Source: an uncultured Bacilli bacterium
Lineage (GTDB): Bacteria > Bacillota_I > Bacilli_A > RF39 > UBA660
Length of the DNA stretch: 36,288 nt
Direction: 5' to 3'
Assembly (NCBI GenBank): GCA_944359085.1
Contig: CALVSQ010000009.1
Coordinates: forward strand, 1-36,288
The position numbers were made by a program, and so were the translations under genes. Below, piece by piece: positions 6,694 through 36,288 of the stretch. The number at the start of each line of letters is the position of its first letter. Positions within the stretch are counted from its first letter, which is position 1. Below the pieces are notes generated by a model. That model was not told the DNA's origin. It saw only the letters and a list, made by a program, of their open reading frames with translations, and ran no database searches.

Positions 6694-6726
6694 AAAAAAA
6701 CTAATTTATTTCTAAATTAGTTTTTA
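6694..6726. terminator. Bidirectional intrinsic terminator
   Basis: An A-run, the stem CTAATTTA / TAAATTAG with loop TTTC, and a T-run. It serves the SGNH gene on the plus strand and could also serve the minus-strand gene ending at 6870. It lies just inside the segment bracketed by the 37-nt repeats. Confidence 0.8.
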
Positions 6727-6869
6727 TCAAAGAAGAAAGATTTAAATATATTTTACTTATGGAGCAAGTGTCATAGATGTCTATAACTAATCTTTTAATA
6801 TTTGAAAAAATTTTAAAACCTTTTTGTTTTGATATGTTTTTATAACAAAATTAAAATGAAATTGTTGAT

Positions 6870-7760
6870 TTAATATAACTTTCTTAGAACTTTATTTGAT
6901 TGATATGGTTCTGGTGTAAAATCAATATCATAATTAGCTGAATAATTCATAACATCATCAACGGTAGGTTCAATAATTTCAATTGGACTAAATGTTAATC
7001 TAAATTTGTCTTTTTCAATAAAATCAAGTTTAAACCACATTAAATTAAATTTACCATCTTTACTAGTCAATAATAAATGAGAATAAGTTCCCATTAAAGC
7101 TGGTCCATATATGTTAAAATCTTTAATTTCATCTATTGTTTTTGGTGTAGATGCTTGTTTATAATTTTCTTCATTTTCCAAATTTGGATTGAAAAATTTT
7201 GCAATGTTGTAATTACTAATTCTACTATTAACTTCTCTTTTAACAATTTCTTCATTACTTGGAATTAAGTTTGGGCCAATTTTAAAGTCATCCTTTTTAC
7301 TTTTAATAAATGAAATAAATCCGTTTCTATCCATCATTACCATTATATCAAAATTATCACTATTAAACATTTCATCAATTTCATTTCGACTTAATTCCAT
7401 TATATTTTTAGAAGCATCTCTTTCGTCACAAAATAAAGATTCTTCTAAAACTAAGGCTCTATCATTTTCTTTAAAAAAGTAATTTTTATGAAAACTAAAT
7501 CCTCCTTGACCTCTATAATTTAGATAAACCTTATTATATTCAAATATTTCTGTGAAATGTTGCTGATTGCTCTGTTCTTTGTCGCTAAATGGAAATAAAT
7601 TTCTACTAGGATGATTTGAATACTTATTAATTAAAACTTCTTCTCCAAGTTTCAATAAAATTATTTCATCTGAACTTAATATTAAATGTGTTTCAGCAGT
7701 ACGTGGCATTATTTGAATTAACCCATTTTTGCAATATTTAGAATTAATGGAATATATCAT
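6870..7760 (-). CDS. Unrecognised 296-residue protein, probably acquired
   Basis: I do not recognise a family. The protein is soluble, with no signal peptide or membrane helix. It is rich in Asn, Glu, Lys and Phe, with beta-prone stretches such as THLILSSDEIILLKLGEEVL and FNIYGPALMGTYSHLLLTS. Its N-terminus (MIYSINSKYCKNGLIQIMPR) gives no motif. Expression signals are good: GGGAG before the ATG at 7760 and TATAAT about 45 nt further upstream on the minus strand. It sits reversed between two genes whose relatives are close neighbours in Bacillus, and is bracketed by 37-nt direct repeats, so it is probably an inserted gene. No function is proposed. Confidence 0.65.
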   Translation of the reverse strand: MIYSINSKYCKNGLIQIMPRTAETHLILSSDEIILLKLGEEVLINKYSNHPSRNLFPFSDKEQSNQQHFTEIFEYNKVYLNYRGQGGFSFHKNYFFKENDRALVLEESLFCDERDASKNIMELSRNEIDEMFNSDNFDIMVMMDRNGFISFIKSKKDDFKIGPNLIPSNEEIVKREVNSRISNYNIAKFFNPNLENEENYKQASTPKTIDEIKDFNIYGPALMGTYSHLLLTSKDGKFNLMWFKLDFIEKDKFRLTFSPIEIIEPTVDDVMNYSANYDIDFTPEPYQSNKVLRKLY

Positions 7761-9414: not shown

Positions 9415-10665
9415 ATGAGAGTAAACGAAAAAATCAAAAGAATTACGCAAGATACTTTGATATGTGGAATAGACATTGGAAAAACAAAGTGTTGTGCAAG
9501 ATTCTGTGATTATAGAGGAATGGAGGTGTATCATAAAGTCTGGTTTGATAGAACAGAAAATCTTGATGCAATTGGTTGTCAAATAACAGCTGCAATGTAT
9601 AAAGAAAATAAAACAGATATAGTGATATCATTTGAACCAACAGGACATTATTGGTTAAATATAGACAAATATTTTAAAGATTGTGGGCAAGAGACGGTAT
9701 TAATGCCAACATATACAGTTAAACAATCAAAGGAACAATACGATCAAAATCCAACTAAGAGTGATCCAAAAGATGCATTGTTAATAGCTAGATTAACAAG
9801 CGAAGGCAAATATGTTAAACCAATAGAAAGAGACGATATATATCAAGATATATATTCAGGTTATCAAATATATGATGATATACAAAAAGAAATAAATAGA
9901 GTTAAAAATAAAATACATGTATGGAATGATAAATATTTTCCAGAGTTAGAACATGTATATAAAATAGATTCTGTAAGCATTAAACCTATTTATAAGAAAC
10001 AATTAATACCTAGCGAAATTAATAATATGGAACTGGAAGCATTTATTGAAATAATGACTGAAAACAATCATTATGCTAAAAAAGAAAATATAAAAAAATT
10101 AAAAGAGTTGTGTAAAAAAAGTAATGCAATAAATATAGATGATTTCAGTAAATATGAAATAAAAAGATTATACGAAAGATATGAAGAATTAGTTAAAGAG
10201 TTAGAAGAAGTAAAAAGTAAATTAATAGAATTAGCAAGTCAAATAGACTATGTAGAAAAACTAGTTGAAATATCTGGAGTAAATTATATAAGTATAGTTG
10301 GGATTATTGCAGAAACAGGAGATTTAAGAAATTACGATCATGCAAAACAAGTGATAAAGATGAGTGGTTTAAGTTTAAAAGAAAGTTCAAGTGGGCAAAA
10401 AAAAGGAAAGAAACATATTTCTAAACGAGGACGTTCTAAATTAAGACGTAACTTAAAACAAATCGGAATCGCCCTTGTAAAAAATAATAATTTCTTTCTG
10501 CAATTGCATACTTATTATACCACAGAACGCGACAATAAGTTAAGTAAATTAATATCAATAAATGCAATAATACGAAAATTTACATATATAATGATGTCAA
10601 TAGTAAAAACAGGAGAATCATTTAGTGTAGATAAAGCAATAAAAGAAAGTTGTATATTTAATTAA
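9415..10665 (+). CDS. IS110-family DEDD transposase (RNA-guided recombinase family)
   Basis: A full-length 416-residue transposase. The N-terminal RuvC-like domain has the DEDD set: Asp20 in GIDIGKTK, Glu74 in SFEPTG, and Asp117/Asp120 in KSDPKDALLIARL. A lysine-rich coiled-coil middle follows (about 130-280). The C-terminal Transposase_20 domain has ISGVNYISIVGIIAETGDL and a serine cluster at 324-326 before GQKKGKKHISKRGRSKLRR; a serine here is the proposed recombinase nucleophile. AGGAGG at 9402-9407 fits the ATG. TATAAT at 9389-9394 sits near the left end. No frameshift, so the element may be active. Confidence 0.92.
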   Translation: MRVNEKIKRITQDTLICGIDIGKTKCCARFCDYRGMEVYHKVWFDRTENLDAIGCQITAAMYKENKTDIVISFEPTGHYWLNIDKYFKDCGQETVLMPTYTVKQSKEQYDQNPTKSDPKDALLIARLTSEGKYVKPIERDDIYQDIYSGYQIYDDIQKEINRVKNKIHVWNDKYFPELEHVYKIDSVSIKPIYKKQLIPSEINNMELEAFIEIMTENNHYAKKENIKKLKELCKKSNAINIDDFSKYEIKRLYERYEELVKELEEVKSKLIELASQIDYVEKLVEISGVNYISIVGIIAETGDLRNYDHAKQVIKMSGLSLKESSSGQKKGKKHISKRGRSKLRRNLKQIGIALVKNNNFFLQLHTYYTTERDNKLSKLISINAIIRKFTYIMMSIVKTGESFSVDKAIKESCIFN

Positions 10666-34083: not shown

Positions 34084-34254
34084 GTGAAAAAGTTGTTAAT
34101 TTTATTATTATTAATACCAATAAATATTAAAGCTTATTCTAGTAGTGCCACTAGTACAGTTTTAATGGATATGGATAGCTTAAATGTTATATACTCTAAT
34201 AATATGAATGAGATTAGAAGTATAGCTTCAATATCTAATATTATGACTACATAG
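34084..34254 (+). pseudogene. Truncated D-alanyl-D-alanine carboxypeptidase (DacF-like, S11) remnant
   Basis: A 56-codon GTG-started frame after AGGTGAT encodes a signal peptide (KKLLILLLLIPINIKAYS) and the start of an S11 carboxypeptidase: STVLMDMDSLNVIYSNNMNE, then IASISNIMT. The active-site SxxK reads SISN, so the catalytic Lys is Asn. The frame closes with three consecutive in-frame stops, TAG TAA TGA. The rest of the enzyme (over 300 residues) is missing. A weakly related stretch may persist to about 34350. The remaining bases to 34375 show no gene. D,D-carboxypeptidases trim peptidoglycan stem peptides; this copy is dead. Confidence 0.8.
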
Positions 34255-34374: not shown

Positions 34375-34403
34375 TTGAAGCATTTATCGTAAAATGATAT
34401 AAT
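34375..34403 (+). promoter_or_regulatory. Promoter of the Nudix gene
   Basis: TTGAAG (34375-34380), 17-nt spacer, TATAAT (34398-34403). Confidence 0.7.
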
Positions 34404-34421: not shown

Positions 34422-34829
34422 ATGAAAAAAATGAATGTTATTGTAGTATTTGATAATAAACTAGAAAATACATTAATGTGTAAAAGAACAAAAGAACCAT
34501 ATATGGGAATGTATAATTTAGTAGGTGGAAAAATAGAAAAAGAAAATGATGGATTAAATGAAGCATATAGAGAATTAGAAGAAGAAACTAATATTAAGAA
34601 GAAGGATATAGATTTAATTCATTTTATGAATCTTACTTATACTAAATGGAATAAAGAATTAGAAGTTTATTATGGAATATTAAAAAATGAAGTAGAACTA
34701 ATCGAAGAAGTAAATAAACTAGAATGGATAAGTGTTAACGATAATTTCTTTGATATGAACAGATATGCAGGAGAAGGAAATATAGGACATATTATCGAAG
34801 AAATTAAAATAGATTTGAAAAGCAACTAA
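34422..34829 (+). CDS. Nudix hydrolase, MutT-like
   Basis: A 135-residue Nudix enzyme with the box GGKIEKENDGLNEAYRELEE followed by ETNI. Strand segment NVIVVFDNKLENTLMCKR and the length suit a MutT/8-oxo-dGTPase-like protein, but the substrate is not fixed by sequence. GGAGGAAG precedes the ATG. It is followed by its own terminator and then by the guanylate kinase-methyltransferase fusion, so nucleotide chemistry may link the two. Confidence 0.88.
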   Translation: MKKMNVIVVFDNKLENTLMCKRTKEPYMGMYNLVGGKIEKENDGLNEAYRELEEETNIKKKDIDLIHFMNLTYTKWNKELEVYYGILKNEVELIEEVNKLEWISVNDNFFDMNRYAGEGNIGHIIEEIKIDLKSN

Positions 34830-34846
34830 CAAATAGTTGTTTTTTG
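34818..34846 (+). terminator. Terminator of the Nudix gene
   Basis: AAAAGCAACTA with TAGTTGTTTT (one G-T), loop ACAAA, T-run; overlaps the last codons. Confidence 0.8.
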
Positions 34847-34905
34847 TTTGGAAAAAAACGGAATTTATGCTATAATACAAGGCAATTCAAGGGGGAGATA
34901 TATTT

Positions 34906-36276
34906 ATGAATATAGTTTTTAGTGGACCTAGCGGTGCTGGGAAGGGAACATTAACAGAAATGTTCTTGAAAGATAATAACTTTAAAAAATTTACAACATG
35001 TACAACAAGGAAACCACGTGAAGGAGAGAAAGATGGTTTCGATTATTATTTTTATGACAAAGAAATATTTTTACAAAAGGTAAATGCAGAAGAAATGTTT
35101 AATGTTAAAGAATATGGTGGTAATTATTATGGTAGTTTAGAAGAAGATATGGATAATATTCAAACTATGAAAAATGTAATATTTCAAATAACACCAGATA
35201 GAGCACTTGAAATGAAAGAAAGAAATCCTAATACATGTATGATATTAATAATTCCACCAAGAGCAGAATCATTAATCAACAGAAGAAAAGACCGTTCAGA
35301 AGAAAGAATAAAAAATGACATTCAAAATTTAGAAACAGCTAAAAAATTTGATTATGTAATAGTGAACGATAATATAGAACAAGCATATGAAAATATTAAA
35401 TTATGCATTCATCATTTTATATATGGTGGAGAATGTGAATTCTTAGTCAAAGACAATATTGGATTGATAGAAAATTTAATAAAAGGATTAAATACAAGTA
35501 TTGAAGGAAAAGGCGTAGAAAAAGTATTTAATAGTGAAATTGCAAAAAAATGGGATCAAAAAGCAGAATATGTTACATATTATGGTGTAAAAAATCCAAT
35601 AACAGAAGAAGTGATGTCTTCAGCAAATAATGGTTTAAAAATTGCAGATATAGGTTGCGGAACAGGAAAGATTTTACAAAAATTAGATGATAAATATATA
35701 GATTGTAATCTAACAGGATTAGATATAAGTAGTGATATGATAGCAGTAGCACAAACAAGAAACTTTACAGGAAGAAACAATATAACTTTAGTCAATAATG
35801 ATTTTATGGAATATGATTTTAAAGATTATTATGATATAATTATATTCAGTTATGTATTACACCATATGGATAATCCAATTGAAGCACTAAAGAAAGCAAA
35901 AGATATGCTTACGGATAGAGGAAAAATATTATTTTCAGTACCAGGAAAGGCATATCTATCTGAGGTTTTTAGTGATGATAAGAGTGTAGGAAGATTTAGT
36001 GTTGAAGAAATGGATGACATAGTAATGGGTGCTGGATTATATCCTTTAAAAGCAAGTAGAAATAGATTTATGATGTCATTTAATTCATATGAAATGTTCT
36101 TAAAATATTTAAAAAGTATTGGAACATATCAAAAAATTATGGGATATTCTAATCAAAATTGGTCTAAAGAATTCTCAGATGAAATTTTGAGAAAATTTGA
36201 CTCTACTGCATTTATAACAGGTGAATATTTGACATATAATTGTGAAAATCTTCAAAGAAAATTAAGGAGGAAGTAG
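34906..36276 (+). CDS. Guanylate kinase-SAM methyltransferase fusion protein
   Basis: A 456-residue two-domain enzyme. Residues 1-175 are a guanylate-kinase-like domain: P-loop GPSGAGKGT (7-15), the GMP-binding TTRKPREGEKDGFDYYF (33-49) and GGNYYGS (71-77), and the lid arginines RRKDRSEERI. Residues about 210-390 are a class I SAM methyltransferase: IADIGCGTGKIL (246-257), GLDISSDMI, and FSYVLHHMDNPIEALKKA. The final 60 residues are helical. TATAAT at 34871-34876 and GGGGGAG precede the ATG. Stand-alone GMK is about 200 residues, so this is not the housekeeping enzyme. A nucleotide or nucleotide-derived substrate that is both phosphorylated and methylated is inferred. Another gene begins 2 nt after it. 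Confidence 0.88.
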   Translation: MNIVFSGPSGAGKGTLTEMFLKDNNFKKFTTCTTRKPREGEKDGFDYYFYDKEIFLQKVNAEEMFNVKEYGGNYYGSLEEDMDNIQTMKNVIFQITPDRALEMKERNPNTCMILIIPPRAESLINRRKDRSEERIKNDIQNLETAKKFDYVIVNDNIEQAYENIKLCIHHFIYGGECEFLVKDNIGLIENLIKGLNTSIEGKGVEKVFNSEIAKKWDQKAEYVTYYGVKNPITEEVMSSANNGLKIADIGCGTGKILQKLDDKYIDCNLTGLDISSDMIAVAQTRNFTGRNNITLVNNDFMEYDFKDYYDIIIFSYVLHHMDNPIEALKKAKDMLTDRGKILFSVPGKAYLSEVFSDDKSVGRFSVEEMDDIVMGAGLYPLKASRNRFMMSFNSYEMFLKYLKSIGTYQKIMGYSNQNWSKEFSDEILRKFDSTAFITGEYLTYNCENLQRKLRRK

Positions 36277-36277
36277 T

Positions 36278-36288
36278 ATGATTTTATA
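36278..36288 (+). CDS. Start of a further gene, cut by the window edge
   Basis: ATG at 36278 after GGAGGAAG, one base after the previous stop. Only three codons are visible (Met-Ile-Leu), so no call is possible except that it belongs to the same operon as the kinase-methyltransferase fusion. Confidence 0.6.

Follow-up and report, generated by a model that had tools for sequence, protein, structure and literature searches.

A guanylate kinase-fold and methyltransferase fusion as a putative accessory of a mobile nuclease-helicase module in gut Bacilli

Close to the right end of the 36,288-nucleotide stretch of DNA analysed here (hereafter the window), which derives from an uncultured Bacilli bacterium, a guanylate kinase (Gmk)-fold domain and a class I S-adenosylmethionine (SAM) methyltransferase domain are encoded as one polypeptide. 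We tentatively propose that this fusion may be the small-molecule-modifying accessory of a mobile, defence-type module of three genes, which encode a Nudix hydrolase, the fusion itself, and a PD-(D/E)XK nuclease-helicase (referred to below as the trio).

The fusion gene and its two domains

The fusion gene (34906..36276, + strand) starts with ATG and encodes 456 amino acids without an internal stop; its assignment draws on the open reading frame, Pfam and NCBIfam profiles, complete orthologues, and a dN/dS of about 0.1. A GMK-fold kinase domain (aa 3-169) is followed by a linker (about 170-205) and the class I SAM methyltransferase domain (about 206-446). The Pfam model Guanylate_kin matched residues 3-169 with 96.6 bits (cut-off 25.2; E = 1.8e-27), several class I methyltransferase models from Pfam matched residues 241-350 with E-values down to 4.7e-21, and the NCBIfam BioC model TIGR02072 covered residues 244-446. 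Because the BioC profile extends to residue 446, the methyltransferase domain reaches its C-terminus. An earlier note on this DNA had described two complete domains in a single polypeptide, which agrees with the intact reading frame and with the profile matches to both domains; a break at residues 180-210 was sought, and the frame of the fusion in the window is unbroken. The contig ends 12 bases past the stop of the fusion gene, and the assembly is readable no further than position 36288.

Complete copies in one frame were found in four relatives (L024, 95% identity; L025, 85%; G083 from another genus, 55%; and G427), and two further copies are truncated by contig ends alone (G005 and G924). 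The expectation that the same fusion occurs in other genomes was thus borne out, and the four complete copies refute the possibility, also raised in the earlier note, that it is found only here. The source organism groups with gut Bacilli assemblies, the named relative of which is Candidatus Faecisoma merdavium. Every intact fusion copy comes from a metagenome assembly, all of them within a single bacterial family, in which only a few genomes contain the fusion. At E 1e-45, no fusion was detected beyond the family in a class sample of 395 genomes and a phylum sample of 392 genomes. Collections of phages, plasmids and viral contigs yielded no full fusion, and a search of the open-access literature found no report of a kinase-methyltransferase fusion. 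The fusion gene is under purifying selection, with dN/dS values of 0.104 between the window and L024 and of 0.097 between the window and L025 that were low in both domains; values of 0.2-0.4 were obtained for the distant copies, in which synonymous sites are near saturation. Intact relatives and dN/dS together rule out an assembly artefact or a chance fusion.

Several other copies are decayed. Frameshifts or stops break the fusion in G006, G001, L028 and G424, deletions affect it in G008, G014, G012, G016, G009 and G296, and a 3' remnant persists in G065. The joined state is not universal, because the break is located close to the domain boundary in L028 (near residue 160) and in L068 (between residues 173 and 186). 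With a break this close to the boundary, both domains might be produced separately in L028 and G424.

The GMK-fold domain (34912..35412, +) was aligned with the other fusion copies, with canonical Gmk domains of related genomes and with PDB 3tau. Pocket residues were read from these alignments; an AlphaFold model based on a shallow alignment gave a pLDDT of 40 and was set aside. The P-loop GPSGAGKGT and residues R35, R38, Y47, Y74 and Y75 are retained in the window and are nearly invariant across all copies. In contrast, N66, Q94 and T96 occupy, in every fusion copy, the three positions at which acidic residues read guanine; the canonical Gmk of relatives has E, E (in rare cases V or I) and E/D at the equivalent positions. 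By alignment we take these columns to be E69, D98 and D100 of the yeast enzyme, residues that read the guanine base; guanine reading by these positions is established for yeast and human guanylate kinase. The Gln-Gly that follows the guanine-reading positions is replaced by D98-R99 in the fusion, the lid of which is about 10 aa shorter than the canonical Gmk lid. With 132.9 bits, the fusion also remained under the cut-off of 160.45 of the Gmk equivalog model TIGR03263. Since the guanine-reading residues are replaced although the P-loop and the phosphate-binding arginines are kept, GMP is probably not the substrate of the kinase domain. GMP or dGMP, which had been put forward as likely substrates, thus find no support, as the replacements occur in all members. 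The same genome encodes an ordinary Gmk separately (C18:16291; 36% identical to the domain of the fusion), and the kinase domain of the fusion is therefore an extra, divergent one. That the fusion is itself an ordinary Gmk is ruled out by the replaced guanine contacts and by this second, normal gmk.

Other GMK-like proteins were observed alongside. A free-standing paralogue of 205 aa with a short lid and a partly altered base pocket (G023, L052:6097-6714) is encoded by a gene that runs into the beginning of a HAM1/RdgB-type nucleotide pyrophosphatase gene (6711-7298). At L054:4451-7360 in G014, a Maf nucleotide pyrophosphatase gene lies near the gene of a 502-aa protein that has a GMK-like domain at its N-terminus and whose C-terminal part matched no Pfam model.

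The SAM methyltransferase domain (35629..36273, +) was delimited by Pfam, NCBIfam and the comparison of copies. It features motif I (ADIGCGTGK), an acidic residue (D273) and a VLHHM motif IV region. Motif I reads ADIGCGTGK in four of five fusion copies and ADVGCGTGK in the remaining one, and the C-terminal blocks SIGTYQKI and ITGEYLTY are invariant among the fusion copies. The Pfam model Methyltransf_12 matched with 75.8 bits (cut-off 30), and the BioC model TIGR02072 with 79 bits, which is under its cut-off of 184.95. Judged by motifs and profiles, the domain is a methyltransferase of the BioC/UbiE-like small-molecule type. A DNA methyltransferase of a restriction system was rejected as an identity for this domain: no such family was among the Pfam/NCBIfam matches, and the PADLOC profile MTase_II matched weakly.

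Conserved neighbours and mobile carriage

Upstream of the fusion, the window encodes a Nudix hydrolase of 135 aa (34422..34829, +; Pfam NUDIX, E = 3e-10), in which the catalytic RELEEE cluster is present and which confirms the neighbouring Nudix gene noticed earlier. This hydrolase is a conserved partner of the fusion and was found at most module loci. Its gene precedes the fusion in the window, L025 and L028; in G083, G427 and G296 it follows the helicase. At several loci the position beside the fusion holds a truncated Nudix gene or none, and the fusion is likewise broken there.

Promoter-like sites with an extended -10 element precede both the Nudix gene (TTGAAG-17-TATAAT at 34375..34403, +; 10 of 12 consensus positions) and the fusion gene (TTGGAA-17-TATAAT at 34848..34876, +), but sites of the scanned kind were about equally frequent in shuffled sequence and are thus weak evidence for separate units. 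A hairpin with a 12-bp stem, followed by a T-run, lies between the two genes (34817..34846, +; z = -1.92 for a 101-nt stretch). It was not flagged in a G+C-based terminator scan and is possibly an AT-rich terminator. Because of the individual promoter-like sites and the hairpin with T-run between them, a Nudix-fusion operon is doubtful, and the two genes may be separate transcription units. Of the modified-nucleotide operon that had been suggested for this region, the neighbouring genes are real, while a shared operon with the Nudix is doubtful and the surroundings are mobile and defence-like, unlike those of a biosynthetic pathway.

Behind the fusion, the contig end cuts a further gene, of which the window itself holds only the first 11 bases (ATGATTTTATA, encoding M-I-L-Y; 36278..36288, +). 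These bases open the helicase reading frame at the same spacing in L024, L025, L027, L028, L029 and L031. In all relatives in which the sequence continues, the fusion is followed by a gene, whole or split, for a protein of about 616-619 residues. This protein combines a PD-(D/E)XK-like domain at its N-terminus with a helicase domain of Schlafen group 3 (PF09848), which was matched with E = 2.9e-96 in L031. The closely spaced next gene is thus present as described before, but it encodes a PD-(D/E)XK nuclease-helicase and no metabolic enzyme. All 52 helicases compared, the nine of the trio among them, share residues D79, E97 and K99 of the PD-(D/E)XK motif as well as GTGK and DE.H without exception, and the same applies to most Walker A/B positions. 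The PADLOC profiles PDC-S41, Nhi and AbiO gave weak, partial matches to these helicases (about 45-71 bits).

At nine loci the fusion was lost and the helicase remained intact. As the helicase persists in many loci with a destroyed fusion, it is probably independent of the latter, and its frequent retention after fusion loss indicates that the fusion is an accessory and not a core part. Such frequent loss beside an intact helicase fits a costly accessory. Intact fusions and intact helicases seemed to exclude each other (1 and 2 against 9 and 0; Fisher's exact test, p = 0.045), but this pattern is not pressed here because of the shared ancestry of the loci. It is further weakened by the position of both helicase splits near the nuclease-helicase boundary, as in L096 and L106. 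Splits of the helicase gene near this boundary were observed in L025:4055-5911, L069:5546-7410, L096 and L106, and may represent natural gene fission, not decay.

According to the sequence contexts of its copies, the module is carried by several unrelated mobile elements. The trio was kept together in at least four different element contexts, in the order Nudix-fusion-helicase or fusion-helicase-Nudix; L050 is a locus at which every gene of the trio is intact. In the window, the 5' piece of a D-Ala-D-Ala carboxypeptidase gene (34085..34254, +; Pfam Peptidase_S11 and comparison with intact copies) is cut just after the active-site SxxK region, and the left boundary of the island, with an ATGAC core, lies at about 34247. 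The 3' part of the carboxypeptidase resumes in L031 from position 9881 onward, after a large serine recombinase, and the gene is uninterrupted in L027, L029 and L055. By this comparison, the module of the window sits in a serine-recombinase island that interrupts the carboxypeptidase gene. Here a D-Ala-D-Ala carboxypeptidase gene, cut beside its SxxK motif, is the integration site of a large-serine-recombinase island. Two further copies in G270 (L025 and L028) are located in other islands near serine recombinases, the G083 copy shares its contig with a tyrosine-integrase-like gene (read from sequence), and the G424/G296 copy adjoins uvrB.

Related MazG-helicase pairs

The same helicase family was present in 38 of 295 sampled phylum genomes, and also on plasmids of bacteria and archaea. 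A small MazG-like pyrophosphohydrolase was encoded close by in 31 of the 43 helicase loci used for the phylogenetic tree. These MazG-helicase pairs have variable extra genes, such as those for an HNH endonuclease and a DpnII/MboI-type nuclease in L119 and for AbiH in L092. The nine trio helicases formed one clade (support 100/99), and MazG was absent from every trio locus, where the Nudix is found instead. The simplest reading of the tree would be one replacement of MazG by Nudix along with the gain of the fusion.

Small MazG-like proteins paired with a PD-(D/E)XK Schlafen-group-3 helicase (L080-L121, L073, L075, L078 and L079) form a widespread and apparently undescribed combination. It was seen in Bacillota and relatives, Bacteroidota, Halobacteria and a Microcystis phage, and its accessory genes vary. 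A search of the open-access literature yielded no report of a MazG-DUF2075 pairing or of its counterpart with the Nudix.

Proposed function and comparison with known systems

The fusion is constantly accompanied by the nuclease-helicase, the module is mobile, the genes next to the related pairs vary, and the occurrence is patchy with frequent decay. Taken together, these traits suggest that the module is of a defence type, which we consider likely. With more reserve, we propose that the fusion may modify a small, nucleotide-like molecule that is not GMP, and that the Nudix may be the counter-enzyme. The kinase domain would phosphorylate this non-GMP substrate and the methyltransferase domain would methylate the same molecule. 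The product could then signal to, or be sensed by, the nuclease-helicase, which would degrade nucleic acid during phage infection. The Nudix, in a position equivalent to that of MazG in the related pairs, would hydrolyse the product or its precursor and thereby prevent activation in healthy cells. It is rather doubtful that these parts amount to a new nucleotide-signal defence system, in which a phosphorylated and methylated messenger from the fusion is erased by the Nudix and switches on the nuclease-helicase in infection. The basis of our proposal at the sequence level is the gene order, the fused reading frame, purifying selection and a kinase domain of which the base pocket is altered but the phosphate site intact, together with the intact SAM-binding motifs, the nuclease and helicase motifs that are intact in relatives, and the unrelated mobile elements.

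If the module works as proposed, one polypeptide chain would both phosphorylate and methylate a nucleotide-like molecule that is not GMP. To our knowledge, no such one-chain kinase-methyltransferase chemistry is known from described phage-defence systems. Furthermore, the widespread MazG-helicase pair would be able to swap its pyrophosphatase (MazG to Nudix) on gaining an enzyme. Even if the messenger idea is set aside, the gene neighbourhood of the nuclease-helicase is conserved and its partner logic can be tested.

Kinase, methyltransferase and Nudix all suit small-molecule chemistry, the methyltransferase is BioC-like, and GMK-like paralogues of the same bacterial family are encoded close to HAM1 and Maf pyrophosphatases. 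These features would also agree with a housekeeping or salvage role, in which fusion and Nudix handle a rare modified host nucleotide and the helicase, as a passenger, shares their element. We consider such a role unlikely, however, as it poorly fits the nuclease-helicase linkage across unrelated elements, the small number of genomes and the repeated gene decay. It is quite unlikely that the fusion makes a methylated nucleotide which blocks phage polymerases and is cleared by the Nudix, with an independent helicase. A kinase and a SAM-dependent enzyme acting on a nucleotide would parallel prokaryotic viperins, which come with nucleotide kinases, and the retention of the helicase without the fusion suggests that the two may be independent, but no radical-SAM family was among the Pfam matches of fusion or Nudix, and the fusion is closely linked with the helicase. 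Finally, the altered guanine-reading residues and lid recall the regulatory use of GMK folds in MAGUK proteins, yet it is likewise quite unlikely that the domain is a kinase-inactive nucleotide- or protein-binding sensor which controls a methyltransferase with protein, lipid or nucleic acid as substrate, because the P-loop lysine and the phosphate-binding Arg/Tyr are kept in nearly all copies, unlike in most MAGUK domains, and no DNA-methyltransferase family was among the Pfam/NCBIfam matches.

The fusion shares with Gmk (TIGR03263, PDB 3tau) the fold by profile, the P-loop, the phosphate-binding Arg/Tyr and about 36-38% identity, but it differs by N66/Q94/T96 in place of the acidic guanine contacts, the shortened lid, the fused methyltransferase and the mobile context. 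Like BioC/UbiE-type class I methyltransferases, it matches nearly the whole BioC profile and has a small-molecule-type motif IV; unlike BioC, it scores far under the cut-off and has its own invariant C-terminal blocks, and biotin genes were not seen nearby. The likeness to prokaryotic viperin with its nucleotide kinase is an analogy only, confined to the idea of a kinase with a SAM-dependent enzyme, as the fusion has a class I methyltransferase domain where viperin has a radical-SAM domain. The PADLOC profiles of Nhi, AbiO and PDC-S41 match parts of the helicase, and do so weakly. The MazG and DUF2075 (Schlafen-group-3) pairs resemble the trio in their homologous nuclease-helicase (about 40-47% identity), the adjoining nucleotide pyrophosphohydrolase and the variable extra genes, whereas the trio has a Nudix instead of MazG and, in addition, the kinase-methyltransferase fusion.
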